Shown: piece by piece, positions 21,133 to 61,200 of the stretch
Numbering within the stretch: position 1 is the stretch's first letter
Layout of the letters: every line of letters starts with the position of its first letter
Source: Mesostigma viride
Taxonomy: Eukaryota > Streptophyta > Mesostigmatophyceae > Mesostigmatales > Mesostigmataceae
NCBI GenBank assembly: GCA_009746045.1
Contig: RPFO01000389.1
Span: forward strand, 1,499,982-1,563,981
Length of the DNA stretch: 64,000 bases
Reading direction: 5' to 3'
Made by a program: the position numbers and the translations under genes
The notes under the pieces: model-generated
What the model saw: the letters and a program-made list of their open reading frames with translations, nothing else
The model's database searches: none
What the model was told of the DNA's origin: nothing

Positions 21133-21749
21133 AGTTAACGTAAAGGATTTACGTTAGATGGATAGAGATTGTTACGCTCTTTCCAACGGCACCTTGAACG
21201 CCTCATTTGGTTAAGGAACGTAAAAGTTATGACGTTTCCTAGGCTGTGCCGACAGTACCCGGCGCGCCACTGTGGGCGCGTACGGACACAGGATGTACAA
21301 GTGTCACTTTGATAGTCCGCAGGACGTTGACAGGACTTGTACAGGACTTGATGGTCAATTGATAGGTACCCGCGCTGTAGCGCGCCAGGACCTATGAGAC
21401 AATTGATGCTGATCAGTGTACGGATAGGTCCACAGGACTAGCCGTATGGACAATTGATAGATCTGCGCGCCAAAGGAGTGCCAGAGTCTGTGTAATCAAT
21501 TGATTGACAGTTCAGCTGTGACAGTGCAGCTGAATACTTGGACGCGTCCCTAGCAACCTATATGTGTGACTTGGTAGATCTAGGACGCCAGTTCTTGCGT
21601 GCACGCTCTCTTGGCACTGCGACCCTGTCGTCTGTGCTGCGTGCAGTCTTGGAAGTGACGTGACTTACGTCTGTGTTCCTTATTCATAATAAAGGCAACT
21701 TTCCTGCAAGAACCATGGCGGAATTCAAGGCATTCACGCTCTCACAACT
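21133..21749 (+). repeat. 3' LTR of A1 (617 bp)
   Basis: Nearly identical to the 5' LTR: one substitution (TAGATCTAGG for TAGCTCTAGG) and one T fewer in a T-run. Followed by the GAAAT duplication. Confidence 0.93.
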
Positions 21750-21754
21750 GAAAT

Positions 21755-22626
21755 GGCTGGCGCTTGATGAAGCCAGCCGGGCAGGATGGGCAGCCAGGGG
21801 CAGTTGGACTCCTCGTCGTCAAGTTGGATGCAGGGATGGCAACCAGCTTCTTGATGCGATCGGCACCAGCATGGCCCAAACGCCAGTGCAGCAGCAGGCT
21901 AACTGGCCGCTCCACCGTCACAGCAGCCATCGCTGGCGCTGCCTTCGCCGCAGGTAACACGTAGATGTTGTTCTGCATGGCGATCTTGTGATGCTTGTTA
22001 TCCAGCACCACTGTCTCTTTGTGGAAATCCACCTTGTGACCTGCCTTTGCGAGTTGCGCAACTGAAAGGAGTCGTGCATTCAGGCCAGGTACAAGCAGCG
22101 CTCCTTGCAAGCGCACGCTGTGGCCAGGAAGCTCCACGGCGATGGTGCCCTGGCCGGTAGCGTGCAGCTGTCCGCCGGAGCCAGCGATTGCCCTGCTGTG
22201 GGGGGTCAGAGACACAAAGTCAGAACGGCACGGGGACATGTGGCTGCTCGCAGCCGAGTCCAGCACCCAGGTGAGGTTGTCGCACGTATACTGCGTGAGA
22301 GCAGCAGCCTCCGGCGGCGTCGACGGCGACTCCTCGGCAATGGTGACCATGCAGAAGCCAGGCGGCAGTTCAGCCGCCTCCTGAGTTGCGTTGGCAGCGG
22401 ATCCAGCAGGTGCGTTGCGTCCCTTGTTCTGGTTCCCTCGGTTGCCGCCCTTGCCCCCCCTGTGCTGGTTGGGGTACCAGCGTGGGGCCTTCTCAGGATG
22501 CTCCTTCCAGCAGTCTTTGTCCTTGTGATTTGACAGGCCACAGTGACTGCATTTCTTGGTCCCCCCGTTCCCCTTGCTGTTGGTGTGGTAGGCCTGGCCA
22601 GTGCCAGCACTCTCCTTTTTCACCAC
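21755..22626 (-). CDS. Cop1 gag C-terminus, protease and pre-integrase domain
   Basis: The minus strand encodes a zinc knuckle, C-SH-C-GLSN-H-KDKD-C. An aspartic protease follows with WVLDSAASSHM, where DSA stands in place of the usual DSG. The GAG-pre-integrase HHCC region has LLHWRLGHAGADRI and CPSCPAGF. The frame runs into the A1 insertion and continues as the Cop1 pol ORF at 11813. A one-base shift in a five-G run near 22630 separates it from the upstream gag ORF. The protease here lies before the integrase, the normal copia order. Confidence 0.9.
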
Positions 22627-23249
22627 AGCACGTCCCCCTTGAGCAGATCCTCCGCCTCCATGAGTGCCCTCTTCACCACAGGTAGTGGGTCCTCCTCGTT
22701 GAACCGTACAGACACCAGCGCAGGGCGGTACTCGTCTGTCAGTGCTCCCAGTAGAATAGCAGCAAAATCACGGTCCTGGATGACTCCCCCTGCAGCCTGG
22801 TAGTCAGCACGTAGAAGCTCCGCCCTCCTCACGAGCTGTTGCATGGTCTCGTTAGGAAGCTTCTGTAGGCGGTGCAGCTTGCTCCTCAGCTCAAACCTGT
22901 GACTCTTGGTTAGCCTGGTTTGCTCATAGTTTTCCATGAGACACTGCCATGCTTGGCTACCAGTTTTGTTGGCCACAGTGGCCATTAGGCGTGCAGCTTC
23001 ACCTGTTAGACAGGTGAGCAAAGCTGCCCACAGGGCCTTATCAGCCCTGTCATTCTCCTCAGTGCCCAGCAGGACAGCATCCAAACTGAAAAGACTGACA
23101 ACAGCCAAAAACAAATTCTTCCACTCCTCCCACTTGCTGTAATCATCACCAGCTGCACCAACAAATTTCTTGCAGCTCTTGGCAACTGTTGAAACAAGAG
23201 AGGTGTAGTCAGGCTGTCTGGTAGCAGTTTGGGTGTCTTGATCCTCCAT
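22620..23249 (-). CDS. gag: Cop1 gag capsid region
   Basis: ATG at 23249, 209 codons. The sequence fits the UBN2/copia gag type: WEEWKNLFLAVVSLF, AWQCLMENYEQTRLTKSHRF, LQKLPNETMQQLVRRAELL, DEYRPALVSV. It would form the particle shell. It ends at a TGA caused by a probable one-base indel in GGGGG; in the original frame it would run on into the zinc-knuckle ORF. Confidence 0.9.
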   Translation of the reverse strand: MEDQDTQTATRQPDYTSLVSTVAKSCKKFVGAAGDDYSKWEEWKNLFLAVVSLFSLDAVLLGTEENDRADKALWAALLTCLTGEAARLMATVANKTGSQAWQCLMENYEQTRLTKSHRFELRSKLHRLQKLPNETMQQLVRRAELLRADYQAAGGVIQDRDFAAILLGALTDEYRPALVSVRFNEEDPLPVVKRALMEAEDLLKGDVLW

Positions 23250-23329
23250 GGTTGATCTGGGTCTGGGTGTTGTCTCTGGGGTAGTCAGATGAATGTCTCT
23301 GCTCCTCAAATGCAGGGTAGGCATCAAAC

Positions 23330-23340
23330 CTCCGATACCA
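23330..23340 (-). promoter_or_regulatory. Primer-binding site of Cop1, initiator-Met tRNA type
   Basis: Minus strand TGGTATCGGAG directly follows the 5' LTR. It closely matches the TGGTATCAGAG site used by many copia elements. Confidence 0.88.
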
Positions 23341-23745
23341 TGTTGAAAGAACTAATGGGTTTGCCCTCTACAATGCTTGTGATTGAAACCCAAATGTGCC
23401 TGTCCTTGCAGGTACAGGCTATGGAGGATGGGAGCAAAGAGACAGAGACTCAGTTTGAGGCAGAATGATAGTGAGGAGTACCTTTGGCAAGGCTCCTCAG
23501 TTGTTTTATTAACTCGAGGAAAAAACACAGGCAGAAAACTGGAATGACCTGATTGGCTGGCTAGGAATGTGCCTAGGAATATTCTCGTGTAATACTCAGG
23601 CCACCAATCAGGTTAGGTCAGTGTACAGGCTACCAATCAGATCTAGACAAGAATAAATCTTATCTTATAACTGCTGTACAGCCTTATCTTGTAACTGATG
23701 TACAGTCTTAACTTGTAACTGCTGCACAGTAATCTAACTATTTAA

Positions 23746-25321
23746 CCGTGTTGGTCTGTACGGCAGTACGGGGTACTCGGTAAAACCCTTGCGTACTGTA
23801 AAAATACAGGTATTTTTGCGAGGGGTAAAAAATACGCGAAAAAACACGCAGTACGGCATACGGGGTATTTTTGAAATTGTGCTAAAAAAGTACGGGGTAT
23901 TATTGAGGCCAAGGCTTAAAGTACGGGGTATTCTAAGGATGTGTGGCCCTGCATCCAACAAATGTTACTATGTACTATGCTCTCTGCTATTCATTAATGA
24001 GCATAATGGCAGTGACTTGCCACCTGCCACACTTAGATCGACATTGCAATACATCCTTCAACTGTACATTTGTATATTGTGGACACGCAAACTATTGACC
24101 ATCTAACACCGGTCTCTTTTATTACAATGCATTATTGACAACATAATACATGATTGAATGGTATAATGCACCCAGAGCTCTGGCAGCCTCGATGCAGAGG
24201 ATGTCATAGCACTATAGATGGCAGCTTCGCTGCACAATGACAACAAGTGCATGCCACGAATCCCTAAGAAATAAAATCAAGGCAATGAACCCAGAATTGA
24301 CCTTCACTGCTGCGGCAGGTCCATACTTTGCCACTGCCGCGATCATGTTCTTGTACGAGGCGCTGGCGGCGACGTGAAACGGAATGCCATTCTCGTAAAA
24401 GAAAGAGGCCTGGGCAAGGCGGACTTCCTGGAGCTGCGCATTGGAAAAGCACTGTGGAATCGTCTTCTGCACTGCCTTGCCAGAGCCACAAGGGCCAGCA
24501 CCCGGGGCAGCGGCAGGCAGAAGGGCCTTGGCAACGCGGGCACCGAGCACTGCCTTTTGCTCCTTCTTTTCCAACCGGGCTGCCTCAGCCGCCTGAAGCC
24601 TCCCGATCAGGCCTTCTACATTCCTAGACTGCTGGCAAAATGTGGCTCCCTTGTTGGGGATGTGGCCCAGATGGCCGACAGCGCGATCCTTGCTAAAGTT
24701 GCCAGGCCTGCCGAACTTGTAATCGCACAGCTTGCACGCCTGGCCACCTCTGGCCGACTACCACGTCTTCCCCACTCACGGTCTTTTCCACCTCGTCAAT
24801 CAGGTGGAGGTATTGACACTCCTCTCCCCTTTTGACGACTGGAACTCTAGGCATGGTCGCCTCTTTTAGGATTGCCTAGCGCACAATACATGAACCGGCG
24901 CCCCCGGCACCCTCTATTTGCTTTAATTGCGTCTTCACTCTTCTGCGTCTTTCTGGAAGTGCACCCGTCCCTAAACCTTATGATTCTGCCATGCATGCTC
25001 TGTCCCCTCGCAGCTTTTCTCCCGCGAATAAAAAATCCTGTCAAAAAATGTAGAAAGAAAAAAAATGTAGAAAAAAATGTAGAAAGGCACACCGTCACGC
25101 GTGTACTAGCAAGTAGCTATGCACTCGCTGCAATTTCAGCAATTTTAGTACCACTGACAGGTCTGGGCCTCTCCCCACCGCGTGACACGTCCACGACCTC
25201 CAAAATCGGCTAAGTCCAAAGTGAAAAACAGTGAAAATCGTACGGCGTACGCGGTCGAAAGCGTCAGTACCGTGGAATACGGCGTATTTTCATACCCGAG
25301 GTGCCGTACGAACCAACACGG
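23746..25321. mobile_element. hAT-type DNA transposon with truncated transposase
   Basis: 1576 bp, flanked by the 8-bp duplication CTATTTAA (23738-23745, 25322-25329). Terminal inverted repeats CCGTGTTGGT(C/T)(T/C)GTACGGC match at 18 of 20 positions. It inserted in the Cop1 5' LTR. The 8-bp duplication and the transposase remnant inside identify hAT. Repeated GTACGGGGTA(T/C)T-like subterminal motifs are typical transposase-binding sites. Confidence 0.9.
24212..24757 (-). pseudogene. hAT transposase N-terminal fragment: BED zinc finger and start of DUF659-like domain
   Basis: The open minus frame runs from an in-frame TAG at 24758-24760 to 24212, about 180 codons. A BED-like finger is present: CKLC, then about 20 residues, then GHLGHIPNKGATFC. 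A Lys/Ala-rich linker follows, then RLAQASFFYENGIPFHVAASASYKNMIAAVAKYG, quoted here in parts: LAQASFFYENGIPFHVA and YKNMIAAVAKYG. The latter is the start of the DUF659 region of plant and fungal hAT transposases. The catalytic core and dimerisation domain are missing. The element therefore depends on a transposase from elsewhere. Confidence 0.8.
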
Positions 25322-25674
25322 CTATTTAATAAAAGATCTCTCCGTGTGTGATCTGATGATGATGAAGTAAATCTGGCGTGAACATATCAGCGCCACATCT
25401 GACATGCACAGTGTACATGTCAATCAGTCAGCTGTCCTGTCATAGATTCTCATCTGACATGTCATAGGTCAGCTGACATAGACAGATTTGTCAGCTGCCT
25501 ATAAGGATCCACTTGGCATAGGTACTAATCCCTGATTACTAAAATTGGCCACAACTTTCTCATTTGTAGGCCAAATCCAACGGGATAAAAAACAGTGGCT
25601 CCTGTACAAGAGCCTCTATCTATCTAGCCAGGTCAGGTGGGTACAAATACAAGGACCATGTCCTTGACACAAGG

Positions 25675-25761: not shown

Positions 25762-26084
25762 TAACCGTAACTGAAAGACCAGGTACTCACAATAGTACGT
25801 TCATGGACTCCTCTATCCAAACTCCTCTGACTAAGCGCTGAAGACCTAACTTTAATCTGCACCAGGTTCCCAAAGAAAGGGTTGGGATGTCATGTGGGTC
25901 AGAGGGCAACCTTTGAACCGATGAGCAGGCCTAGCTAGTCTTTGGAGGCACCTCAGGTTCCAAAAGAAAAGGCAGTCTGCATGGTCTCTGGGAGGGATCA
26001 GATGTCTCAGTGAAGGCTTGTGGGGGCAGTGGCTGAAAGGTTCTCATGCAGTCTGGTCCAAGCTCCAAAACAAGAAAGGGTTGG
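25762..26084 (+). other. 3' UTR fragment and purine tract of AGT-B copy B6
   Basis: It matches the B2 3' UTR (57295-57590) inverted. It contains ACAATAGTACG, the complement of the AGT-B primer-binding position CGTACTATTGT, and ends with the purine-rich AACAAGAAAGGGTTGG before the LTR. Confidence 0.75.
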
Positions 26085-29427: not shown

Positions 29428-29455
29428 GAAATCGCAACAGGAATGCAATAGTACG

Positions 29456-36906: not shown

Positions 36907-38348
36907 AAGAGCTCATGCATGTGTGCAACCATAGGCACGTGCTCGATGTCAAGGGCTTTGGGCTGGTCACGCCTCGGGGGCTGTCAGCGGGCACCTACTC
37001 ACCCGAGGTAGTAGAGGCATACCAACAGCATCTACAGGATACCGCCGCCAAGCTGCGGCTCAAGGATGCCACGCTGCCTGATTTGTCTAGCGCTTTTGAG
37101 GTCGGGCAGTTGGTCATGTTCCACAAGGAGAGCTCGCCCAGCGGCAAACGGGGCACCATGCAGGTTCCTGGGGCCATCACAAAGTTAGACTGGCCGCTGC
37201 GGGTCATAGACATAGAGTGGAATGATCGGGTGTATAGGGTACCATGGGCATCGGTGGCAGGCTATAAGCAAGGGGATGGCATGGAGAGTGAGCTGGCAGC
37301 CCACAGGGCACTGGGGTGGGTAGTGAAGGATAATGCGCCTGTCGAAGCATCTGAGGTGGTACCCCACGGGTCGCTCCCAGGGGCAGACACAGCTACACCC
37401 CCCCCTCCCCTGGGCCCCAATATGACCCCGTGGATGGGTGGGATGAGGATGGGGTGGGTTTGACGGGACCTAGTGCACGTAATGACTCACCTCCTGTGCT
37501 AGCCACGGATAATGTGGGAGGCCCGCCTAGCGTGGCCTCGCCGGAGGGTCAGGGTCCTGCCCATGCGCCTCGCCCACCTAGGGACCTGGCTTCAACGGTC
37601 ACGGCCTTGTGGCGTGCTCAGGCGCTTAAAGCGAAAGCTGCATCAGGGGTGGCTCAGGTCAAAACTCTCTCACAGGGGGTCAGGCCGGTTAAGTCAGCCT
37701 TGTTTCCTACGACGTGTAGACCGTGGCAGCTGGTGGCTGTGGACACGCAAGCATCCGTGTCTATTATCTCTCGTCGGGCGGCCACCCTGTATCCAGTGCT
37801 AGAGTCGCCGTACAAATCGGTGACCGACTTTGCAGGCACTTCGGCATATCAAGTTACCGGGATGGTGGTGCTGCCGGTGTTGGGCATTGACACGCCGTTT
37901 CACGTCGTGGATGGCTACGAGGATGTGGCCTTGCCGGGCGAACCTTTCGTATCATACCCGGGGTTCTCAGTGTCCGCTGACTTGCTGTCGGTCACGGGGG
38001 TGGGCAGCATCCCGCTTCGCGAGTACCACGCTCCATTGGGGGTGGTGGTCGGGCAGCCCGGCGTCGTGCGGCGCTTACCGATGGCGGCGTTTTCCACACC
38101 GCCGCTCGTCCAGTCCATCATTCAGCCTCAGGATTGGCACCCGCGCAGCTTCGGCCTCCACTCACACTCACTGGCGGCGGATAGCCCTGTGACGTGGGAG
38201 CAACTTGTCCTGGACTGTCAAGATCCTCTCAAGTTTGCTATGTGGCGCGACGCGTTCATTCGAGCCAAGGAGCAGTGGCGAGAGCGCGAGGTCTACCGAG
38301 GATTGGAGAGTGTGCCAGCCGGGGCCACGTGGTTGCGGTTGAAGTTCG
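36907..38348 (+). pseudogene. pol: C1 integrase C-terminus and protease-like segment
   Basis: It continues the integrase after PAL-1: an SH3-like tail with FEVGQLVMFHKESSPSGKRG and RVYRVPWASV, a Pro-rich linker, then AVDTQASVSIISRRAATLYP and, about 65 residues on, a retropepsin-like second half (VLPVLGIDTPFHVVDGYEDV). A one-base insertion in a C-run near 37410 shifts frame. It is interrupted at 38348 by C2; the pol continues at 55297. Confidence 0.85.
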
Positions 38349-38693: not shown

Positions 38694-39071
38694 CCGACAT
38701 ACTCTTTTGTTCTTTGATTAATTATCAAAATAATTACATCAAATGCAGATCATACAAAACCCTCTAAGGTAGGGAACTCAAGGGGGCCTCAAGGCCGTCA
38801 AAATCACCACGGTATCGACCCGCGCCCTTGTGATCACACATGAATAGTGATGTAATAAGTAGCGAGCAAAAAAACAACTATGCCACCAGACAAAAGGTGA
38901 CCCATTTATTAGGACCAGTGACCCGCCGACGGGCCCAAGGCACCGTCCAATGTGGCTAGGGTATGGTCATGACAAGCAAAAAAACTACCACCATGATATT
39001 CGTGAATGCTAGCAACACAGGGTGAGTTATGGCTGTATTCATAAAGCGCCCGAGCCGTAACCCTGTGTGGC
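38694..39071 (-). other. 3' UTR of C2
   Basis: No ORF. In the sense strand it contains TTTATGAATACA (39034-39045), an exact 12-nt complement of the primer-binding position at 54940-54951. A GGGCGC motif lies directly upstream (39046-39051). Confidence 0.7.
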
Positions 39072-40262
39072 TCACGGGTGTTGCATCGTCATGCGCTTGC
39101 GCAACACTGCGTACTGCGGGGCAGCCTCCCGCGCCTCCTTGGTGAGTGCATCCGCGGGATTGAGTTCATCCGCGATGTGCTGGAGACGCGTGACGCAGGA
39201 GGCCGCCTCAGCGAGTACGAGGTAATCAACGTCCTGTGACCGCGCATAGGGATTGTCAAGGAAGGCCAAACAACTTTGTGAGTCAGTGTGCACCGTGCTA
39301 GTCCAGTGAAGAGTGAACCCACACGAGCCAAATACCCAACCCAGCAAGTACCGCAGCCACATGCCATGTGAGATAGCTGAAACAATGCCCCGGCATTCAG
39401 CCGTGTTGGGGCTAGTGGCAATGCGGCTGTGCAAGCGCGAGTACCAATCTAACAACATGCCAGGCTGGCCCTCATTGCTGATAAAGAACAGCGCCCCCAT
39501 GCGGGCCCGCACTTGGCTGACTGTGCGCGTCTCTAGATTAGCATCCGTCACTATCTCGAGGTGCACCGGCTGTAAGCAATCAAGCCCACGAAGCACAATG
39601 CCGGGCGTCATGGCCAGCTGCCGCCGAACATGAATGGACCCTAGTCCTTCCAGCACATCATCGGGCAGGCGAGCGAGCACTGCCAAATCAGGTGCCACCG
39701 TGTCCGCCAACCACCCGAGCTTGCCCTTAACCGAGGGCCCATGGGTTGCCAACAGCGGGGACGGGAGATTGGCCAGCAGGTCAACCACATAGTTGCGGCT
39801 ATCCTGCATGTGCATGACCCATTCGCCAGAACGCGAATCCCGCTGCAACGTAGACTGCACGCCGCAAAATACCACGGGTTTACCCTCCTCATGATCCACC
39901 GCCCTGCCCAGGGGAAACTTAGCCGCCACTGCAGCAAGAAACTGTGTAGCAAAGGTGCGAGGTGCCACCAGCTTGAAGTCGTCACCATGCCACACGAAGA
40001 GGGCTGGCTCGCCAGGGACGCCGGTGGGGACCACAAAGAAGTTAGGATCCGCGCGATGGTACGTGGCCCCTAAGCTCTGCAAGACCTCCTCCGCGGAAAT
40101 GCGGAAGATGATGGGAGAGCTCTGCAGCCCCTCCACCCCTGTCAACAGCTCGATATACTCGCTGCCAATGGTGCCATCCTGCCAGACCACCGGGACCTTC
40201 ACCACGTAGCGGGTGCCTTGCCATGTTTGCTGCGCGACCCCAGCGTCGCTGTGGAGGATGCC
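39072..40262 (-). CDS. pol: C2 reverse transcriptase (most) and RNase H
   Basis: The minus strand encodes GVEGLQSSPIIFRISAEEVL, ADPNFFVV, the active-site segment FVWHGDDFKLVAP, and then an RNase H with HLEIVTDANLETRTV, TAECRGIVSAI, HTDSQSCLAFL and ELNPADALTKEARE. The frame is open from 40254 to the stop at 39072. It is separated from its upstream part by PAL-2. HGDD stands in place of the usual YVDD of LTR retrotransposons. Confidence 0.88.
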   Translation of the reverse strand, partial: GILHSDAGVAQQTWQGTRYVVKVPVVWQDGTIGSEYIELLTGVEGLQSSPIIFRISAEEVLQSLGATYHRADPNFFVVPTGVPGEPALFVWHGDDFKLVAPRTFATQFLAAVAAKFPLGRAVDHEEGKPVVFCGVQSTLQRDSRSGEWVMHMQDSRNYVVDLLANLPSPLLATHGPSVKGKLGWLADTVAPDLAVLARLPDDVLEGLGSIHVRRQLAMTPGIVLRGLDCLQPVHLEIVTDANLETRTVSQVRARMGALFFISNEGQPGMLLDWYSRLHSRIATSPNTAECRGIVSAISHGMWLRYLLGWVFGSCGFTLHWTSTVHTDSQSCLAFLDNPYARSQDVDYLVLAEAASCVTRLQHIADELNPADALTKEAREAAPQYAVLRKRMTMQHP

Positions 40263-42633: not shown

Positions 42634-43277
42634 AGTTAGCATTTTGGGCAACCAATATGCTAAGTGGATACAGTTTGGAAAGACCTTTCCAACGCCGTGC
42701 TGACCGCCTGAAACAGACAAGGGACGAGAAAGATATCAAGTCCCGAAGTCCTAGCCATCCGTGGCCGACTAGGGTGCAGTCCTCTGGTGTAGTGGACAGG
42801 ACACGTGGCAGGCCGTGCCTGCACAGGCTTAGCCTGTCTATCACGTGACTGTGGTCCACGTAGACCAGGAGGAGCAGCAGCCTGTGACTAGTAGGGTACT
42901 GGCACTGGCACAAGGCTGCAAGGATACTAGGCCTTGCAGGCTTGTGACAGGTCCTGTACTTCCTAGGTTGCAGAGTCTAGGCAAATCCAGTACGTCCTGG
43001 CTCTGCACTGATGCCAGTGGACGTTGTGGATTTGCCTGCACGCCTGCACGTGCCTCGTCATGCCGATGGGAACGAGGAACAACGCAAGGATATAGCTTGG
43101 TCATGGGGGATGACCAGCTATCTCGGAAAGCACGAACCGTGGGTGCCACCTTGGTCGTGGAAGTGCCCATTGTGGTCGTGGCCTGGTGAACAGATTTAAG
43201 GTTGCTGCCTTGCAACATTGGCTAAGACGCGCTGTGAAAGACCAAGAGCTCACATACGTTGGGAGCTCTTTCTAACT
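42634..43277 (+). repeat. 5' LTR of B1 (644 bp)
   Basis: It begins AGTTAGCATTTTGGGC and ends CTCTTTCTAACT. A strong hairpin, AAGAGCTC / GAGCTCTT with an 11-nt loop (43244-43270), lies seven bases before the LTR end. Confidence 0.92.
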
Positions 43278-43288
43278 CGTATTATTGT
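43278..43288 (+). promoter_or_regulatory. Primer-binding position of B1, complementary to the 3' UTR
   Basis: CGTATTATTGT follows the LTR. The exact complement ACAATAATACG is at 50693-50703, between pol and the purine tract. Confidence 0.65.
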
Positions 43289-43302
43289 CTCCTTACTTCT
43301 TC

Positions 43303-44120
43303 ATGTCCAACGTGCCGAGGGAACAGGCCATTGAGCCTTCGCAAAGCCAGAGCTCGCAGCCGCAGCTTCGGGCAGGCGCCCCGGAGCGATCACGACCTTT
43401 TCATCCCTACGCTCATCCGAGCACTGCAACAACCTTCGTCCAGGCGGCGTACCTGGCAAGGGGGCTGGCGAAGAAAGGTTGGGTAGCAGTTTGCGGAACT
43501 GCAGCAGGGCCGGCGGCGAGCGACCCCATTGTGATGCAGATTGAGGCTTCGACAGCTCCCGGCGAATTGTCGCGAGAGGCCGTCGAAAAGTTTGTGTCAA
43601 TACGGGACGAGCTGTCCTCGACCATTTACGGTCTGGAGGTAGCTCACCAGGGCGGGCACGTGACCGTGTCGCAGCTGGATTTGGCGCGGGAGGCTCTGGG
43701 CCAGATCGTGGCCATTGGGCTGGGAGCAGCGCGACTGTTCAATCATCAGGTGGCAACGTCTGTGCTGGGCGCGGGAGTAGAAGTCCCGGACGTGATCAGG
43801 CAAGCGCAGGCGCGCGAAGTCGACAACCCCTGGTCGACAACAGAGGTGGTTTCACAAACGTGCGAGCATCTCGTGAACATTCTTTTGCAGGAGTCACGGG
43901 GTAACGCAGACCGGTGGGTGATAACCACACGACCATTTGGGATTTGGTCAACACTTGATACACCGCGGGCGGCGGAACCAGACGCACACGATCCAGTGGT
44001 CGAGGTCATCACGGGTCGGGAGGTAACGCCAGAAGACTTCCATTACCAATTCGTTGATCAGCCAGAAGGGATCATCGAACGTTCATCTCAGCAGATAGAT
44101 CAGGGCGACGGTACCGTGGA
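43303..44120 (+). CDS. ORF1 of B1, unknown protein, C-terminus replaced
   Basis: It starts at ATG 43303, 25 bp after the LTR. About 273 codons are intact and give the best view of the N-terminal two thirds: FHPYAHPSTATTFVQAAYLAR, KKGWVAVCG, VSIRDELSSTIYGLEVAHQG, QLDLAREALGQIVAIGLG, ARLFNHQVATSVLG, NPWSTTEVVSQTCEHLVNIL, WVITTRPFGIWSTLDTPR, EVITGREVTPEDFHYQFVD and RSSQQIDQGDGT. The frame then runs into the inverted 3' UTR/LTR piece and stops at 44178. Function unknown. The position, directly after the primer site and before gag, would make it the first protein translated from the genomic RNA. Confidence 0.8.
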
Positions 44121-44785
44121 GGGCCCAGGTTCCTGCCTCCTTTTGGGAAACAACATATACGCCCTTGGACCAGGCTAGGTGTACTGGCCAGTGAATCAGA
44201 GGTCACCCCAGGTTATCCCCTGACCCCTTGGTCAGCTCAAGTTAGAAAGAGCTCCCAACGTATGTGAGCTCTTGGTCTTTCACAGCGCGTCTTAGCCAAT
44301 GTTGCAAGGCAGCAACCTTAAATCTGTTCACCAGGCCACGACCACAATGGGCACTTCCACGACCAAGGTGGCACCCACGGTTCGTGCTTTCCGAGATAGC
44401 TGGTCATCCCCCATGACCAAGCTATATCCTTGCGTTGTTCCTCGTTCCCATCGGCATGACGAGGCACGTGCAGGCGTGCAGGCAAATCCACAACGTCCAC
44501 TGGCATCAGTGCAGAGCCAGGACGTACTGGATTTGCCTAGACTCTGCAACCTAGGAAGTACAGGACCTGTCACAAGCCTGCAAGGCCTAGTATCCTTGCA
44601 GCCTTGTGCCAGTGCCAGTACCCTACTAGTCACAGGCTGCTGCTCCTCCTGGTCTACGTGGACCACAGTCACGTGATAGACAGGCTAAGCCTGTGCAGGC
44701 ACGGCCTGCCACGTGTCCTGTCCACTACACCAGAGGACTGCACCCTAGTCGGCCACGGATGGCTAGGACTTCGGGACTTGATATC
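44121..44785 (-). repeat. Inverted fragment of B1's own 3' UTR and LTR
   Basis: 44121-44239 is the reverse complement of about 50788-50912 (3' UTR). 44240-44785 is the reverse complement of the LTR from its exact end (AACT) inward, truncated before the LTR start. The LTR end is joined directly to the 3' UTR sequence, as expected if an LTR end attacked the element's own DNA (auto-integration). An A+T-rich ATT repeat (44790-44815) follows. Confidence 0.85.
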
Positions 44786-44819
44786 TTTCTTAATTATTAT
44801 TATTATTAATTATTAAATA

Positions 44820-46440
44820 TTATTTTTCTTAACCAGACTGATGGCTCCTTGCGTGCTCTGGAGCTTGTAATCCTCAGCATAAGGAAGCCAGAACCTGCCT
44901 GCAAGGCTATCCAGTCCCATGGCAGCAATGCCACCTCCGCTGTGCAGGGCCAAGGTGATGTCCCCGGGTACCCAGCCCGTGATGGGGCAAGGCCCAACAA
45001 GCGTAAGCGCTTCAGGCGCCAGAGGCAGGGGGCTCAGGGTGGCAAGGGTGCAGGTCCCCAAGGAGGGGTTGGGGGCCAGCAAGCTGGTGGTCAGCAGGGT
45101 AAGGGTGGCCAAGGGCAAGGCAAGGGCCAAGCTCAAGGCAACCAGGGCAAGCAGGGTGGGCAGCCTCAGGGAGGCCAGGGGAAGCCTGGCAAGGGTGGGG
45201 CTGGGTCTGGGAAGAAGGGTGGAGCATGTTTTGTATGTGGCAAGGAAGGTCACTGGCGTCGTGAGTGTCCTGATGTCGCGTCTGCGTGCCACAATCTCCG
45301 GCGCCACCATGGCGGCTGGCCACTCAGCTTAATTTGGTAAAACCCAAATGAGCTGAGCTGACGTGCCTGCCTTAACTGCATGCCCTGTGGGGTGGGCGAG
45401 GACCTGTCCCATGATTGCCCCAGCAAGGATATTCAAACGCGGCACGCGACGGTACACAAGGGGATCAAGAAGGTGGTCATCAGGCACGAGGGACAGTTCC
45501 TTGTCCTCGGCTGAGAGCCCTCTTTTCATTACTCGAAGAGACTACACGCTGCGTGAGAGTCCTCTTCGACTATGAACCAAACCATTCGTCATGCCACACG
45601 CATGACACACGCCACACTTGTCAGTCCAGCCAGGAATGCCAAAACTATCTTGCTGCCTGAACCATGCAAATAGAAACCGCATTCCAGTTGCCGTCCTGGC
45701 TTTCTACCACACATGCCAACAAAAGCAGGAAGGCATCCCGACAAATCTAAATTGCTACCCTGTTGCCGATCTCATCTCCTAGAGGCTCCGGCATTTCTGT
45801 CCCTGGGAATGTCCGACATTGAGTCACGTCCAGCAAGGTCGAAGCATAATATCCTTCAGACAATCTGCACGCTCACACCTTGCGTGTGAGTGGCCCAGCA
45901 AACATTGCGTCTAATCGTTCCTTTCTAGAAGAAATCCCTTTGTAGGGCTGCCAGCGATTTCGCATTCATTCCAGCGATCTGGCTCCGCACCGCAAATTGT
46001 CCTTTTTCATTTTCTGTCCAGTCCTCATAACGTTGACCCGCTATTCTACACCACAAAGACACCTGGCCTGTCAATAGCCTCGGCGCTGTTGAAGTCCAGC
46101 ATGCAGTCCAGCTTCAGCTCCAGCTGTCCACTAACACGCGTATGATCCTCTCGACGCTGCGCACTTGTGCTGCCGTCCGCTCAAGTCAGTGCTGCGCGCC
46201 CAGCTGTGCCTGGCCCGGCGCGCATGCACGTACACTTTCGTCCGCTCTTATGAGCACTGCAAGTGCTAGTGTCCCCCCCCGGTCACTAGCCTTTGTCGAA
46301 AATGCGTAGAAAACAAATTCCTTGCGCACGTCACCGGTCTTGTGCATAGTGGGCGCCGCCCGGATGACATAGCTCGCGTCCGTGACACTGACAGGAAGGC
46401 CAAGCCTGCTGGGGCAGGAGGCCAGTCTGGGCAGCAGTGA
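44820..46440 (+). pseudogene. gag: B1 gag C-terminal half with zinc knuckle
   Basis: It begins inside gag at QTDGSLRALELVILSIRKPEPAC; the capsid start is missing. A basic Gly/Gln-rich stretch leads to C-FV-C-GKEG-H-WRRE-C (CX2CX4HX4C). The end of gag is split by TIR-1 (45274-46387) right after CPD. Removing TIR-1 and one CTGA copy restores the frame, which ends at UGA 46438-46440. The UGA is followed by CUA and pol continues in the same frame. Confidence 0.85.
45274..46387. mobile_element. TIR-1, small DNA element in B1 gag
   Basis: 1114 bp, with CTGA on both sides (45270-45273, 46388-46391). The ends TGTCGCGTCTGCGTGC and, inverted, TGTCACGGACGCGAGC match at 11 of 16. The gag frame is restored when it is removed, so the limits are well supported even though the family is unknown. 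No transposase is seen. Confidence 0.65.
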
Positions 46441-46443
46441 CTA
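46438..46443 (+). promoter_or_regulatory. Candidate readthrough stop UGA-CUA between gag and pol
   Basis: UGA followed by CUA is the best-known strong readthrough context in eukaryotic and viral mRNAs. Pol is open in the same frame directly after it, with no nearby in-frame ATG. Confidence 0.65.
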
Positions 46444-49400
46444 GCTACATCATCCCCTGTAAATAGTCAATCACCTCTAGGGGAAGGTGTGCTGGATGTA
46501 CATAAGGACGGGGGTGTGCCCCTTGTACAGCACCAAGGGTGTAAAGATGTTGTTCTTCCACTGGATTGCAATAACAATGCTGCAGCTGAATTCCCTATGC
46601 CTCATGCAGGTGGTGGGTCTCCAGCAGGTGCTGGCCTGGAGGGCCAAAGGACCTTGCTGGAAGGGCCTGGAGCGGTCCAGGGTGCAGGACCTGACTTGGG
46701 GCGTCAGGACGGCCTGCAGGGAAGCCCTGGAACCTCAGGAGTGGATCATGTGTCCCCACACACGGTTCAGACGTCTCGCCAGGTCAGTACTGACAGAGTG
46801 CTGAGCTATGCTGAGGCTGGCCATAGGTTGCATCACATGTTTGGGCATTCTGGGCAGGCAGCAATGTTTGCTTGGAAGCTAGGTAGGGAGCCTTTGTGGG
46901 AGGCTTGCCAGGCTGCTGCTGAGAACTGTGGTTGCCAGGAGAATGCTGTTCACCCACCTCAGTCCCATGCTAGGGAGCCTGCTAGGGAGCGTGGCGACAT
47001 CCAGATGGATATCCAGCATATCAGGGGCTTGTATATATTGGTGGGGTGGACAGGTTCAGTAGATACAGGCTGATAGACGTTCTGCCTGGTATGCAGGAGC
47101 ACCACTTGTTGTTGGGTATGAAGGCCCTGATCCCAGGCTTTGGGGTGTGCAAGAGTGTGCAGGCAGACTTGCAGTTTGACTGTTTGCTCAAGCATCAGGA
47201 CCAGCTGCCTTGTAAGCTGGTAGTAGTCCCCAGGGAGAGTCATGGGCAGCAAGGGGCTGTAGAGAGATCCATACGTGAAGTGAAGACAGTGGTGCTAGCA
47301 GCAGAGTCAGTGCCACTTGTGGCATCTGCCTTAGAGAGGGCAGCCTGGTGTAAGGGGATAGAAGAGCAGCTGAACCACAGGGTTAACTATTACTTTGATG
47401 GTGTGGCTGTCTCTCCCCTGGCCCTGCAGTATAGCTTGTTGCCTGAGAACGTGGTGCAGGCCAGTCTTAGGAAGGCAGATAGGTTATTTGCCCAGCTGAG
47501 ACGTAAGGACAAGAACTGGAATGTGCTGAGGCCTCAGGTGGGGCTGAAGGTCAGGATGTGGAAGGAACCATCTATTCCAGGCAAGCGGGGGAAGTGGCAG
47601 GATGGGGTTGTCACTCGTGTGGAGGAAGCTAACAGATCTTGCCTGGTGGCTTTGGAAAAGGATCCAAGGCACGTGTACAGGTTGTCCTGGGCTCATGTCA
47701 AGGAGAGAAGGCCACATGCAATCTGGCCTGCAGACGGGCCAGGCCCTCCCAGCTGGGTTGAGGAGCCAGGCCAGAGCCAGGCAGCAGCAGCTAACAATCC
47801 TCTGGTGGTGGATGATGGTCTGTCCCTGCTGGAAGATGACGAGCAGGAGGAGGCTGCTGAAGCAACTGTCACAAGGCCAGAGGGGACGGGGCAGCCACCT
47901 AAGGCCCGGGGGCCTCTCATGGCGGACGTCATCCGAGCACTCATGCGCAGCAAACATGATCCCAAGGTATCCAAGCTCACGGGGTGGGGGTCGTGCTGGG
48001 CAGCTACAATGGAGGTAGATACCAACTCACAGGTGTCTGTCATCAGGGAAGAGGATGCTGTAGGCTTACAGATGTCCCATCCCAGTTGCCTTGCTGTGTC
48101 TGATTTCTCAGGAAAGGTGTCCATGAAGATCCTTGGGGAAGTGAGTGTGCCTATCTTAGGGGTGCCCACCACGTTCTGTGTGGTAGAGGGCTATCAGGGG
48201 CCTGCCATTCTGGGTCAGAACTTCTTGTGCATGCCAGGGGTTACTTTGACCTCTGATGAGTTGGCACTAGAAGGCAGGGGCAGCCTCCCCCTTGAAAGAT
48301 ATCACTATTCCCAGGGTCTTGCAGTGGCGGTGAAGGCTGTTAGGAGTCAGCCAGCTGAGGGTCCTCAAGGTCAGGAGCCCATAGCTGAGGACTTGTTGAT
48401 AATCCCAACCACCTTTGATCCAAGGCAGTTAGGGGTAAACAGGTACCAGATAGCTGCTCACAGTCCTATTCCCTGGCGCCAGCTAGTCGAGATGATGCAA
48501 AGCCCCAAGATGGCTAAGGCATGGACTCTTGGCTTTGTTGCTTCTGGGCATGAGTGGATAGTTTCCAACTGTGCAGAACCTGTGGATGAGCTGCCAGAAG
48601 TTCACCAGCTGCTCAGATTGATGTTTGTCCTCAAGCTCAAGGAGGTAGATGGTGTCCAGGTGCCACATGTCAGACCAGTTGTAACCGAGTATCATGGCAC
48701 TGGCCAGTTGTTAGATGAGGAGCTCTATACTCCAGGGATGCTGCATGACACGTGGAGGATTCTGCTGTGTATATTTCTGTCTTTTCTGGTTAAGGGTGTG
48801 CCCTATAGCTCTGTGCTGATTGATTTCAAGAGGGCTTTTCTCAAGGGTGACCAAGATCAGGCTAGGCAGACTTGGAGAGATATCCCTCCTTTCTTTGTGA
48901 CTGTACCTGCTGTATGGAGAGCAGAGATAAAGGCCAGGTACCTGAGAATTCTGAAAGGGTTGGAAGGTCTCAGGTCCAGTCCCATTATCTGGAGAAAGAG
49001 CCTAGAGAAATTCTTGAAGAATACTTGTGGGTTTTCTGTGTCTCCAGTGGATCCCTGTTTGTTCCAAGGGTCCCACAATGGCCTTCCTGTCTTTGCCTCA
49101 CTGCATGGTGATGACCTGCATCTCATAGGTCCACCAGACTGGGTTGAGGCTGTCTTGGCTAAGATCCAGAAGCGGTTTGAGCTGGGTAAGATACAGCACA
49201 TGGTGGAGAATGAGCCTATGGTCTTCTGTGGCATGCAGGCTACGTTGTTCCAAGCCAAGGGCTCGTGGTTCATCAGGATGGAGGGTGGTAAGGACTACCC
49301 ACAGCAGATTGTGATGCATTGCAGGAGCCCATCACGCAGGCTAGGTGTGCTACCATCAGGGGCATGCTGGCATGGCTTGCAAGTATATGTGCCCCTGACT

Positions 49401-50010
49401 TGCTGGTTCTGAGTCGACTTACTGATTCCCAGCTGGTTGAGGTGGGTGCTGAGAGTGTGGTGCAGGCTGTCATGATGTCTCCCCCTCTCATACTGGGTCC
49501 TGTGGATTTGTACAAGCCCCTTGACATGGTTCTCTATGTGGACAGTTCTATGGATAATAGGAAGGTCACAGAGGTCAGGGGAGGGCAGCAGCATTAGTTA
49601 CCCTGGAGCAAGATCACACCTCACTTGTTACCTGGTACAGTCGGTTGCAGAACAGGGTTACACCCAGCAGTGATATTGCTGAGTGCAGGGCAATCTGTGA
49701 AGGGCTGCATACTGCTCTTTACTTGAGGGAGCTCTTCTACCAGCTATGTCAAGTGGCTTCCTGTAGGTTGCAGCTGCACACACTGGTGAGGACTGATAGC
49801 ATGGGCATGGTGCAATTTGTGCACAGGCAGCTGGCCAGGAGCAGGGACCTTGACTACTTGTTGCTCAAGGAGATGTCCTACCTAGCTCACATTGAACATG
49901 TGCCTGGTGTGGACAACCCTGCAGATGCCCTCACCAAGCTGGAGGAGAAGGCGGAGAGGCAGTACCCCCTGCTCCGTGGGCTCATGGACCCCTTACACGG
50001 GCGGCCATAG
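46441..50010 (+). pseudogene. pol: B1 pol: INT, protease-like, RT, RNase H, three frameshifts
   Basis: Nearly collinear with the intact B2 pol. Integrase: RGDIQMDIQHIRGLY, QADLQFDCL, HGQQGAVERSIREVK, SH3-like tail. Protease-like: EVDTNSQVSVI ... AILGQNFL. RT: VLIDFKRAFLKGD and SLHGDDLHLIG. RNase H: LYVDSSMDNRKV, AECRAICEG, RTDSMGMV, PADALTKL. One-base deletions relative to B2 lie near 47046 (in a G-run), 49310 and 49580. Otherwise most of the protein is well preserved. Confidence 0.9.
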
Positions 50011-51013
50011 AGACCAGGCCTTGCTTCAGCTTGGGTGCCCCAGTGGGCTGCTTGACCAAAGTACCAAGTGGTGACTGGTGCTTACTGGTTGACAGCCGGT
50101 CCTTCAGGGTTAGGTACACCCTCCTGGACAGGAGTTGGTGTGGAATGTCACTCCTACCAGCTGAGAATCATGCCTGGCCCTCCCCATGGGGTTCAGAAGA
50201 GTCGCCAGGACTTAAGTCGACGCCTTTGGCCTCAAACAGTTAGGCCATGCAAGGGCAACCCGAATGCTGGTTCTTACAGGTTGCTGTATATATGTTTTCT
50301 AGTGCTTGTTTCCAACCTGTTGCTAATAAAGAACCTGGTTGTGTGACCATGTGGAACATGGTTGCCAGGGAGCCACATTCTGGGTTATATAATGCTTGAA
50401 TAAAACATAATCATGTCTCTCTCATGTTGTTTCATGGTTGTAATGTTTCTCTTGTGTAAGTTCCAGGTCACCTATAAACCTGGAGGTTGGGGTGGGGTTC
50501 AATTCCCCAGCAGAGCCACAGCCTGGCATGAGTGATTCCTGGGCTTAACACCCAGTGAAGACATGGGCTCCCCAATAAGGCAGTATTTGTATAGGTGCTA
50601 CCTGAGTCCCTTTGAGCATAAAAGGGAAAGGCTGGCCAAGGCGGGCGCCATAAGAACGGGCGCCTGTGATAACTGTGAAAGATCAGGAACTCACAATAAT
50701 ACGTTCTTGGCATCCTTTAATCCCAGCCATTGGACTAGGTAATGTGCCTTGACTTAATCTAACACCAAGTTCCCAAGGAAAGGTTGGGAGCTGACCAAGG
50801 GGTCAGGGGATAACCTGGGGTGACCTCTGATTCACTGGCCAGTACACCTAGCCTGGTCCAAGGGCGTATATGTTGTTTCCCAAAAGGAGGCAGGAACCTG
50901 GGCCCTCAAAGGTCTGATCAGCCTCAAGGGACCAAGCGGTCTGTGGCTGAGTGGGCACAAGCAAGGTTAGGCTGGTTTCAAGCTGGTCCAGCTCCAAAAG
51001 AAGAAAGGGTTGG
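50011..51013 (+). other. 3' UTR of B1
   Basis: In order: a T-arm-like GGGGTTCAATTCCCC (50494-50508); two GGGCGCC motifs (50643-50649, 50658-50664); AAAGATCAGGAACTCACA then ATAATACG, ending the anti-PBS at 50703; and a purine tract AAAAGAAGAAAGGGTTGG directly before the LTR. The AAAGATCAGGAACTCACA block resembles AAAGACCAAGAGCTCACA near the LTR end. Confidence 0.7.
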
Positions 51014-51653
51014 AGTTAGCATTTTGGGCAACCAATATGCTAAGTGGATACAGTTTGGAAAGACCTTTCCAACGCCGTGCTGACCGCCTGAAACAGACAA
51101 GGGACGAGAAAGATATCAAGTCCCGAAGTCCTAGCCATCCGTGGCCGACTAGGGTGCAGTCCTCTGGTGTAGTGGACAGGACACGTGGCAGGCCGTGCCT
51201 GCACAGGCTTAGCCTGTCTATCACGTGACTGTGGTCCACGTAGACCAGGAGGAGCAGCAGCCTGTGACTGTGGGTACTGGACTGGCACAGGCTGCAAGGA
51301 TACTAGGCCTTGCAGGCTTGTGACAGGTCCTGTACTTCCTAGGTTGCAGAGTCTAGGCAAATCCAGTACGTCCTGGCTCTGCACTGATGCCAGTGGACGT
51401 TGTGGATTTGCCTGCACGCCTGCACGTGCCTCGTCATGCCGATGGGAACGAGGAACAACGCAAGGATATAGCTTGGTCATGGGGGATGACCAGCTATCTC
51501 GGAAAGCACGAACCGTGGGTGCCACCTTGGTCGTGGAAGTGCCCATTGTGGTCGTGGCCTGGTGAACAGATTTAAGGTTGCTGCCTTGCAACATTGGCTA
51601 AGACGCGCTGTGAAAGACCAAGAGCTCACATACGTTGGGAGCTCTTTCTAACT
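51014..51653 (+). repeat. 3' LTR of B1 (640 bp)
   Basis: Matches the 5' LTR with a few small indels near 51268-51290. Followed by the CCGGG duplication. Confidence 0.92.
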
Positions 51654-57294: not shown

Positions 57295-58229
57295 CCAACC
57301 CTTTCTTGTTTTGGAGCTTGGACCAGCCTGAGAACCTATCAGCCACTGTCCCCACAAGCCTTCAGACATCTGATCCCTCCCAGAGACCAGACCTGCCTTT
57401 TCTTTTGGAACCTGAGGTGCCTCCAAATATTAGCTAGGCCTGCTCATTGGTTCAAAGGTTGCCCTCTGACCCACATGACATCCCAACCCTTTCTTTGGGA
57501 ACCTGGTGTAGATTAAAGTTAGGTCTTCACTTAGTCAGAGGAGTTTGGATAGAGGAGTCCATGAACGTACTATTGTGAGTTCCTGGTCATCCAGTTATCA
57601 CAGGCGCCCGTTCATATGGCGCCCGCCACGGAGCCTCCTTTATCTTTTAAATCCTTCCAAAGACTGAGAGAGCCCTGACAAATGTTAGCCAACACATGGG
57701 GAGCCCATGTCCTCACTGAGTCTCACTCAGGATTCATACATGCCAGGCTGAGGTCAGCTGGGGAATCGAACCCCACCCCATATCCTCCAGGTTTGGATCA
57801 GCTCCTGGAACTGAGCATCACAAACAACAAGACATGACAATAACAAGATTATGTTTTATTATAAAGGAGTATAACCCATAGTGAGGCCCCTGGCAACCAC
57901 GTCCAACATGGTCACACAACCAGGGATTTTATTAGCATGCAACAGGTTGGTTACAGAGAATATATACAAATGTACAGCAACCTGTTAGAGCCAACACTTG
58001 GGCTGCCCTTGCAGGGTCCATTCCATGAAGACCCAAGGCCCATTACAAAGTCCTTAAGACTCTTCTGCAGCTCCATGACAGAGCCAGGCGAAATTCTCAG
58101 CCAGGGGAGTGACTCCACCCTGACCCCTGTCCAGCAGAGTGTGTCTGAACTCTGAAGGACCTGCTGTCAGCCACCACGTGGCTGCCCAGCCCACTGGGAT
58201 GCCTCCCACCTAGAGCAAGGCTGTTTGGT
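57295..58229 (-). other. 3' UTR of B2
   Basis: In the sense strand: T-arm-like GGGGTTCGATTCCCC (57760-57774), two GGGCGCC motifs (57618-57624, 57603-57609), then ACCAGGAACTCACA leading into ACAATAGTACG (57566-57576), then the purine tract. The order is the same as in B1. No ORF of note. Confidence 0.7.
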
Positions 58230-61200
58230 CTACTCTGGCCCTCCCCCCTTGGAGGCCATGAGCCCACGAAGCAAAGGGTATTGCAGCTCAGCCTTCTCCT
58301 CCAGCTTGGTGAGAGCATCTGCAGGGTTGTCCACGCCAGCCACATGTTCAATGTTAGCTAAGCAAGACATTTCCTTGAGCAACAAATAATCAAGGTCCCT
58401 GCTCCTGGCCAGCTGCCTGTGCACAAACTGCACCATGCCCATGCTGTCAGTTCTTACCAGTGTGTGCATCTGCAACCGACAGGAAGCCACTTGACATAGC
58501 TGGTAAAATAGCTCCCTCAAGTAAAGAGCAGTATGAAGCCCTTCACAGATTGCCCTGCACTCAGCAATGTCACTGCTGGGAGTTACCCTGTTCTGCAACC
58601 GACTGTACCAGCAGACCAGAGAGGACTGTTCCTGCACCAGGGATATTAATGCTGCTGCACGGCCCCTGACCTCTGTGACCTTCCTACTATCCATAGAACT
58701 GTCCACATAGAGCATCATGTCAAAAGGCCTGTACAAATCCAAAGGACCCAGCATGAGAGGGGGAGACATGCGAACAGCCTCTACCACTCTCTCAGCACCC
58801 ACCTCAACCAGTTGGGAATCGGTCAACCGACTCAGTACCAACAGGTCAGGAGCACAAATGCTGGCCAGCCATGCCAACATACCTCGTATTGTTGCACATC
58901 TGGCCTGGGTGATGGGCTCCTGCAAGGCATCTATGATCTGCTGAGGATAATCCTTACCACCCTCCAGCTGGATGGACCATGTACCCTGCTGATGGACCAA
59001 GGTCGCCTGCATTCCACAAAACACCATGGGCTCATTCTCAACCATGTACTGGATCTTACCCAGTTCAAACCGTTTCTGGATCCTGGCCAGAGTCAACTCT
59101 TGCCAAGTGGGATGGCCCAGGAGATGCAGATCATCACCATGCAGGGAGGCAAACGCTGGCAGCCCCTCATAGCTACCCTGAAACAGACAAGGATCAACTG
59201 GAGAGACTGAGAGACCACAGACAGACCTGAGGTACTTCTCCAAGCTCTTCCTCCAGATGATGGGACTCGATCTAAGGCCTTCCACGCCTTTGAGAATCCT
59301 CAAATACCTCGTCTTCAGCTCTGCCCTCCACACTGCAGGCACCTTAACAAAGAAAGGGGGTATTGTGCGCCAAGTATCCTGTGCTTCCTGCTGATCACCC
59401 TTAAGAAAAGCCCTCTTGAAATCTACCAACACAGAGCTATAGGGTATCCCCTTCTGCAGAAAAGACAAATAAATGCACAACAAAATCCTCCATGTATCAT
59501 GCAGCATCCCTGGTGTGTAAAGCTCCTCATCTGCTAACTGTCCAGTGCCATGGTACTCAGTCACAACTGGTCTAACATGTGGCACCTGCACGCCATCTAC
59601 CTCCTTGAGCTTGAGGACAAACATCAATCTGAGCAGCTGGTGATCCTCAGGGAGGACATCCACAGGCTCTGCACAGTTGGCAACTATCCACTCATGCCCA
59701 GAAGCAACAAAGCCAAGAGTCCATGCCTTAGCCATCTTGGGGCTTTGCATCATCTCCACTAGCTTGCGCCAAGGTACAGGACTCGTTCCTGGGATCTGGT
59801 ACCTCTGCACACCCAACTCACGTGGGTCAAACGTAGTAGGGAGGATCAGCAGGTCCCCAGCAATGGGCTCCTTTGTATCAGGACCCTCTGCCTCTAGACC
59901 CCTCACAGCCCTTACAGCCACACTAAGACCCTGGGAGTAGCGATATCTCTGCAAGGGAAGGCGGCCCTGCCCTTCTAATGCTAGCTCCTCAGAGGATATC
60001 CTCACCCCTGGTAAGCACAAGAAGTTCTGACCTAGAATGGCAGGCCCCTGATACCCTTCAACCACACTGAACGTGGTGGGCACCCCCAGGATAGGCACAC
60101 TCACTTCTCCCAAGATCTTCATGGACACATTCCCAGAGAAATCAGACACAGCTAGGCAGCTAGGGGATGACCACTGCAAGCCTGCAGCATCCTCTACCCT
60201 TAGAATGGACACCTGTGAGTTGGTATCCACTTCTAGTGCTGGTGCCCCACATGACCCCCATCCCGTGAGCTTAGATACCTTGGGATCACGCTTGCTGTTC
60301 TGCAGAGCTCGAATGATGTCCGCCATAAGCAGCCCCCTGGACTGTGGTGCAGCCCTGGCCACCTCTGGCCTTGTGACAGACGTCTCAGCAGACTCCTGCT
60401 CACCCTCATCCATCCAGGACAGACCATAATCCAAGCATGGTGGGTTAGCATCTGCTGCCTGGCTCTCATCCTGCTCATCTCCCTCCAAGGGAGGATCAGG
60501 GCCGTCTTCAGGCCAGATTGCAGTTGGCCTTCTCTCCTTGACGTGAGCCCAGGATAGCCTGTACACGTGCTTGGGATTACTCTCCAAAGCCACCAGACAA
60601 GAATGGTTAGCTTCCTCAACATGGGTTACCTGCCCATCTTGCCACTTGCCACGCTTGCCTGGTAATGACGGTTCCTTCCACATCCTGACCCTCAGTCCCA
60701 CCTGGGGCCTCAGCATTTTCCAACCCTTGTCCTTACGCCTCAATCTGGAAAACACCCTGTCTGCCTTCTTCAGGCAGGCTGCCACCACGTCCTGTGATAG
60801 CATACCAAACTGCAATGCCAGGGGAGAGACTGCCACACCATCATAGTAATAGGTTACCCTGTGGTTAAGCTGCTCCTCAATCCCCTTACACCAAGCTGCT
60901 TTCTCTAGAGCTGATGCCACAACAGGCACACTCCTAGCTGCTAGCACCACTGTTTTTACTTCACGTATAGATCTCTCTACAGCTCCCTGCTGCCCATGGC
61001 ATTCCCTAGGGACCACTACCAACTTACAAGGAAGCTGGTCAGCCAGCTTGATCAAGCAGTCAAACTGCAAGTCAGCTTGCACCTTGGTGTACACCCCAAA
61101 GCCTGGCAACAAAGACTGGAGACCCATCAACAGCTGATGCTCCTGCATTCCAGGAAGAATGGTCAGCAACCTATATCTGCTAAACCTATCCACCCCCACC

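Follow-up and report, generated by a model that had tools for sequence, protein, structure and literature searches.

By the standard logic of long terminal repeat (LTR) synthesis, the 3′ end of the primer for reverse transcription must lie at LTR+1, the first base after the 5′ LTR. The primer of Drosophila copia is half a tRNA, cut in the anticodon arm. Three primer types have been counted for plant LTR elements (PMC6317226). Here, we describe LTR elements of three lineages, A, B, and C (the AGT elements), in 64,000 nucleotides of Mesostigma viride DNA (contig RPFO01000389.1, positions 1,499,982 to 1,563,981; hereafter the window). In these elements, the bases directly after the 5′ LTR, at the position of the primer-binding site (PBS), lack the usual TGG and pair with a site in the element's own 3′ untranslated region (UTR). 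The non-TGG primer position and the kept 5′-3′ pairing are well supported by a test in which partners were swapped between families, by copies from the genome, and by a junction found from its 3′ end in a further subfamily, A′. On the strength of these sequences, we consider it somewhat probable that the A, B, and C retrotransposons use their own 3′ UTR to prime reverse transcription.

Several described systems share part of this arrangement, and an earlier sequence-only reading of the window had named Ty1, Ty3, and Tf1 as parallels. Each of these fits in part. Tf1 is primed by the 5′-terminal 11 bases of its own RNA, which pair with the PBS (PMC7175516). As in Tf1 and the sushi elements, the primer proposed here would be part of the element's own RNA. 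Unlike in Tf1, the match is in the 3′ UTR, and 12 B1-type stretches contained no other match of at least 7 nt. Moreover, Tf1 is a Ty3/gypsy element, whereas the Mesostigma elements appear to be copia-like. Among plant Ty1/copia elements, the TAR lineage (Houba, Osr-1) comprises predicted self-primers, similar to the reading given here; however, the TAR primer is described as being freed by cleavage of the transcript's 5′ LTR (PMC6317226). The CYC5:CYC3 interaction of Ty1 is, like the pairing described here, a direct 5′-3′ pairing in genomic RNA, and in Ty1 it aids initiation. CYC5 is situated downstream of the PBS, and Ty1 uses tRNA-iMet as its primer, whereas the 5′ partner in the Mesostigma elements is the PBS position itself, starting at LTR+1 (PMC4974528). 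In Ty3, the 5′ end and the 3′ UTR each carry part of the function of the bipartite PBS, as they would here, but the Ty3 parts pair with the tRNA and the two ends of the Mesostigma elements pair with each other (PMC4974528). Finally, most Skipper elements of dictyostelids are without TGG and have no complement in the left LTR; these are chromoviruses with a polypyrimidine stretch, and the part of the paper cited describes no 3′ UTR partner (PMC5006619). Skipper (PMC5006619) and SM-Tcn1 (PMC2864245) are thus far lineages without a known primer.

The PBS position pairs with the 3′ UTR in three lineages

Exact complements of the bases directly after the 5′ LTR were found in the element's own 3′ UTR, extending over 11 nt in B1, 9 nt in A1, and 12 nt in C2 (Table 1), as the sequence-only reading had claimed for all three AGT lineages. 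The complements of the A1 9-mer and the C2 12-mer each occur at a single place in the window, which is the 3′ site. Using Markov versions of the 3′ UTR, a match anchored at LTR+1 arose in 0 of 20000 for B1, with a frequency of ~1e-4 for C2, and with one of 0.007 for A1. For both B1 and C2, LTR+1 was the single best start among 586. The pairing stops at the LTR edge: none of the seven combinations of sites, four of which were cross-element, had a Watson-Crick extension into the LTR. In C2, the next base into the LTR could form a T:G wobble. In most B1-type copies, ~6.9 kb separates the 3′ site from the LTR.

The sites were also said not to begin with TGG. Indeed, none of the seven junctions of A, B, and C elements in the window has a TGG starting in the first 15 nt after the LTR, and an ordinary tRNA primer was rejected on these grounds. 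In contrast, the LTR of element X, which lies in the same window, is followed by TGGTATCGGAGG, an ordinary TGG site at +1.

Two details of the earlier account were revised. The B6 site, previously placed at 25794, lies at 25789-25799. Similarly, B3 and B5 had been assigned together to the subfamily of B2 and B6; this stands for B5 (92% over the 150 nt of LTR left), and B3 has a B1-like LTR (88.6%). The 3′ end of C1 was not found within the window.

A further similarity between the two ends was observed in the B family. Specifically, the sequence GTGAAAGACCAAGAGCTCACA in U5 (43234-43254 in B1) resembles GTGAAAGATCAGGAACTCA in the 3′ UTR (50675-50693), giving a shared motif of ~18-20 nt. The 3′ UTR copy of this U5-like motif lies just upstream of the B 3′ site.

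Table 1. Coordinates of LTRs, paired sites, and 3′ UTR domains in the window
Feature	Positions	Strand	Remarks
B1 5′ LTR	42634-43277	+	AGTTAG...CTAACT; CCGGG duplication flanks both sides of element
B1 PBS position, LTR+1 to +11, CGTATTATTGT	43278-43288	+	
B1 3′ UTR folded domain	50633-50715	+	Outer stem, GGCGCC hairpin, second hairpin, single-stranded joint; z-score -3.7
B1 3′ site, ACAATAATACG	50693-50703	+	Complement of LTR+1 to +11; proposed primer would end at 50703
B1 3′ LTR	51014-51653	+	
A1 5′ LTR	11819-12436	+	
A1 PBS position, CGTATTACA	12437-12445	+	Directly after 5′ LTR
A1 3′ UTR domain	18908-18996	+	Stem order as in B; z-score -2.1
A1 3′ site, TGTAATACG	18974-18982	+	Inside 3′ UTR domain
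C2 5′ LTR	55296-54952	-	
C2 PBS position, TGTATTCATAAA	54940-54951	-	Directly after 5′ LTR
C2 3′ UTR long hairpin	39000-39080	-	Site in loop beside descending stem; z-score -2.4
C2 3′ site, TTTATGAATACA	39034-39045	-	Loop of 3′ UTR hairpin
C1 PBS position, TGTATTCATAAA	32878-32889	+	
B2 3′ UTR domain	57554-57640	-	z-score -3.7
B2 3′ site, ACAATAGTACG	57566-57576	-	
B6 3′ site, ACAATAGTACG	25789-25799	+	Element truncated upstream, ~25768
B5 PBS position, CGTACTATTG	7873-7882	-	B2/B6 subfamily by LTR
B3 PBS position, CGTACTATTG	29446-29455	-	5′ side only
B4 PBS position, CGTATTATTG	6001-6010	-	5′ side only

The pairing is kept across genomic copies

Genome-wide searches covered the 440-Mb assembly. 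We compared 73 copies: 21 B1-type, 16 A, and 11 C copies, each count including the window copy, together with 20 B2-type and 5 A′ copies. Both ends were seen in 41 of the 73. Over positions 1-8, 36 of these pairs were fully Watson-Crick, one contained a G:U pair (L025), and four contained a single mismatch. At position 5, T:A was found in 16 of 17 B1 pairs, with a G:U intermediate in L025, and C:G was found in 7 of 8 B2 pairs, L036 having C against C. This difference between B1 and B2 is a compensatory double change between subfamilies, as had been proposed. All ten positions were intact in six of the eight B2 pairs. Because copies within a subfamily are related, each cannot be counted as a separate event, and few of the changes are independent: one position from B1 to B2, positions 8-10 from A to B, and several in C.

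Swapping partners between families reduced the paired run from 9-12 nt within a family to 0-7 nt across families. The exception was A with A′, which share the site. These data bear on whether the matches reflect chance, or shared ancestry without function. The PBSs of the families share GTA near their start, copies within a subfamily are related, and the A1 match is weak when taken alone, all of which would suit such an origin. However, the anchored match occurs in three lineages, with pol pieces of ~30-60% protein identity to B2, and the swap breaks it. Already disfavoured, chance or ancestry is a highly improbable explanation.

To delimit the core in family A, we used a junction pattern that left positions 1-10 free. 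This yielded 85 places, of which 66 were exact; the 19 places with one mismatch include chance matches. Positions 1-8 of the exact junctions were CGTATTAC in 65 cases and CGCATTAC in one. Position 9 was A in 61 and T in 5, and position 10 was C in 58, A in 7, and G in 1. The T-at-9 copies in which the 3′ domain was seen (L049, L051, L052, and L068) all retain TGTAATACG (4/4), and no compensating change for position 9 was found in the copies. Thus, the core kept in A comprises 8 nt. Positions 9-10 lie outside the pairing and derive from the template, with no rewriting from a primer.

Subfamily A′ lies outside the window and was found through a loop variant of the GGCGCC double hairpin described below. 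At five genomic places, a 131-nt 3′ stretch of A′ was compared with the 1.4 kb upstream where the 5′ end was expected. In two of the five, the longest upstream complement was an 11-nt one located exactly at the LTR edge, CATTCAACT/CGTATTACAAT (CAACT/CGTATTACAAT; the slash marks the edge). The other three had no such junction. Since A and A′ share one site, this test is only partly independent; its contribution is the register and a match two base pairs longer than that of A1.

The 3′ site lies in a folded domain

The 3′ sites of B1, B2, and A1 are contained in predicted folded domains, and that of C2 in a long hairpin (Table 1). The z-score of the A′ domain was -2.9. The longer folds of B1, B2, and A1 have the same order: an outer stem, a GGCGCC hairpin, a two-part second hairpin, and the site as a joint strand. 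The outer stem does not appear in this form in the shorter A1 fold. The stems of the domain differ in sequence between A and B yet pair. Specifically, the outer-stem sequences are GCCAAG/CTTGGC, CCGTG/CATGG, and CAAGTA/TACTTTG (with one bulge), and those of the second hairpin are TGTGA/TCACA and AATAG/CTATT. The GGCGCC double hairpin was found at 1276 places in the genome, 100 of which were listed, versus 0 for the reversed control.

A second 5′-3′ pairing, through a GGCGCC at +96 of B1, was considered and rejected: no GGCGCC is present in the first 286-400 nt of A1, B3, B4, B5, C1, and C2.

A folded domain of this RNA-like kind would also be accounted for if the primer were a non-tRNA host small RNA of which the 3′ UTR holds a captured copy. 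Consistent with such an RNA, a two-copy, B-box-like repeat with GTAATACG is present on contigs C335 and C334. However, the domain and the site change together between families, which is not expected from one host RNA. Furthermore, no Rfam family reached its gathering score anywhere in the window, and the region around the B1 site gave one sub-threshold match (E 0.46), on the opposite strand. A host small RNA is accordingly a very unlikely source of the primer.

Search for other primers

A Tf1-type primer in the LTR was rejected. Among 12 B1-type stretches (20 were fetched), none had a second anchored match of at least 7 nt in 10 kb. Similarly, the LTRs of A1, B1, and C2 in the window contained no Tf1-type complement of full site length.

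Host tRNAs, which the sequence-only reading had put forward for comparison with the sites, were surveyed in part. A genome-wide pattern for the A and B sites, TARTACG with the T-arm GTTCRANYCC, matched 11 places, no better than the 14 of the reversed control; tRNAs whose T-loop differs, the tRNA-Ile at L127 among them, escape this pattern. ARAGORN detected no tRNA in the four places that were taken of those 11. In the RF00005 list, 63 of 10691 candidates were scored, and the surveyed host tRNAs are correspondingly part of the set. Some of the 63 matches are on small contigs that look organellar or bacterial, and the four that were taken out are tRNAs.

These results bear on a primer of the half-tRNA type. 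Such an RNA, formed by cleavage in the anticodon arm as for Drosophila copia, Osser, and Bianca, might bind at LTR+1, with the 3′ site acting as a mimic of it or as a tether for the element RNA. The A site, once single-base gaps are permitted, is similar to the complement of a half tRNA-Ile. In addition, half tRNA-Met and half tRNA-Ile primers are known in plant Ty1/copia elements (PMC6317226). Against this stand the pattern counts and the ARAGORN result for the A and B sites, within the T-loop limit given above, and the changes in the B2 and C sites, which track the 3′ UTR and not one tRNA. We consider a half-tRNA primer improbable.

The two-copy repeat mentioned above is located at C335:5103740-5103860 and C334:5700-5820 (L123 and L124). 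It contains two B-box-like GGTTYGATTCC motifs and GTAATACG, with a T run downstream, and was not called as a tRNA. As a candidate host primer for family A, it deserves a look.

A proposed mechanism for priming from the 3′ UTR

On the reading that we prefer, the folded 3′ UTR domain would display a strand of 8-12 nt, ...AATARTACG in B, ...GTAATACG in A, and TTTATGAATACA in C, which would pair with the bases directly after the 5′ LTR. Cleavage of the 3′ UTR would then take place immediately 3′ of the site. The simplest candidates for this step are the RNase H of the element and a nuclease of the host, with the RNA in its paired or folded state as the substrate. Extension of the freed 3′ end into U5 would yield minus-strand strong-stop DNA. 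The cut strand could be supplied by the same RNA, by a dimer partner, or by a separate processed fragment. Since U5 resembles the 3′ UTR before the site in B, the new minus strand of these elements could, speculatively, hybridise next to the site and so be directed to the 3′ LTR. A primer encoded in a folded domain of the 3′ UTR, one that co-evolves with the PBS and does not depend on host tRNAs, would constitute a fourth primer source beside the whole tRNA, the half tRNA, and the self primer from the 5′ LTR. We give this proposal an even chance.

The sequence-only reading had offered two roles for the pairing, cyclisation of the RNA or a primer that derives from the 3′ UTR of the element itself. 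In the former, the pairing would circularise the RNA in the manner of CYC5:CYC3 in Ty1, aiding initiation or strand transfer while another RNA primes. Ty1 and Ty3 need a 5′-3′ interaction for efficient initiation (PMC4974528), the folded domain holds the site as a display loop would, and the motif shared by U5 and the 3′ UTR upstream of the B site would fit a role in strand transfer. However, the pairing takes the bases from LTR+1 onward, for which another primer would have to compete, and the partial search yielded no other primer ending as required. Cyclisation alone also leaves unexplained why the pairing is at the primer's own place. Because the pairing is anchored at LTR+1 and has no Watson-Crick run into the LTR, the evidence leans to priming, itself a step that the sequences can only suggest. 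The earlier proposal is thus partly supported, and cyclisation, which we regard as doubtful, is left as the main rival.

Several points weigh against priming from the 3′ UTR. The priming duplex, at 8-12 bp, is short, and an internal site would need an exact cut. The A1 match alone is weak (p 0.007), 7 of 586 starts being equal or better, and in A positions 9-10 are unpaired and are not rewritten from a primer. In 32 of the 73 copies, one end was missing from the stretch taken, due to insertions, truncation, or other length; L056, a chance pattern match with no 3′ domain, was placed among these. Single mismatches within positions 1-8 occur in L036, L042, L054, and L095. Finally, the lowest-energy fold of A′ is unlike the common one, its second hairpin containing one mismatch, and the C fold is without the GGCGCC hairpin.

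If priming from the 3′ UTR is correct, it would represent a new primer type and would hint at where to look in lineages that lack a primer. It would also offer a naturally occurring case of joint change in primer and template, in an element freed from host tRNAs. In the open-licence literature searched, which leaves subscription papers mostly outside, no LTR element with a 3′ UTR-derived primer was described. Potentially novel priming has been proposed for Tcn2-5 of Cryptococcus, according to a review of yeast elements (PMC7175516). A similar mechanism may thus have been reported earlier.

Elements and their genomic setting

The window is a nest of LTR elements. The pol protein of B2 is identical at 512 of 514 residues to a EukProt protein labelled jgi/Mesvir1. 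We take this label to denote Mesostigma viride, which makes this streptophyte alga the most likely host. In a published M. viride genome, 60339 LTR retroelements were the top class of repetitive elements, at 27.9% (PMC6947507). The LTRs of the A, B, and C elements share the start AGTT; they end in AACT in B1, A1, and C2, and in AAAT in some B copies. Target duplications of 5 bp were CCGGG for B1, GAAAT for A1, and CGAAC for C2.

The A and C pol pieces align to B2 in the same order, the longer ones with ~51-60% and ~30-43% protein identity, respectively. Scores with the RVT_2 profile were 28.4 bits for A1, 22.5 for B1, and 18.1 for B2, all below the Pfam cut-off of 31.6, and the C pol pieces gave no match to this profile. 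Based on these sub-threshold scores, we term the A, B, and C elements diverged copia-like LTR elements, a classification that their sequences suggest. Consistent with an integrase upstream of the reverse transcriptase (RT), a weak rve match precedes RVT_2 in B2 (E 0.16) and A1 (E 0.0067). No relatives of the B2 pol were found in the viral-contig and genome-contig collections searched.

A protease-like stretch was observed between the integrase and RT in A, B, and C (59784-60266 on the minus strand, 47973-48455, 16455-16937, and 37733-38165). It has an invariant DT followed by N or Q (DTN/DTQ) where G is expected, and its best Pfam hint had an E of 0.28. To our knowledge, this gene order is unusual.

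Element X (8029-25670, minus strand), a canonical Copia with an RVT_2 score of 173.7 bits, sits among the A, B, and C elements. Apparently, it is split by A1 and has itself inserted into a B5 LTR. The region 30632-63999 is deeply nested: C2 appears to sit within C1, a member of its own family, with B1 within C2 and B2 within C1. Within the interior of B1, 44113-44790 is an inverted piece corresponding to LTR positions 94-644 followed by 3′ UTR sequence, perhaps the product of autointegration or of a template switch.

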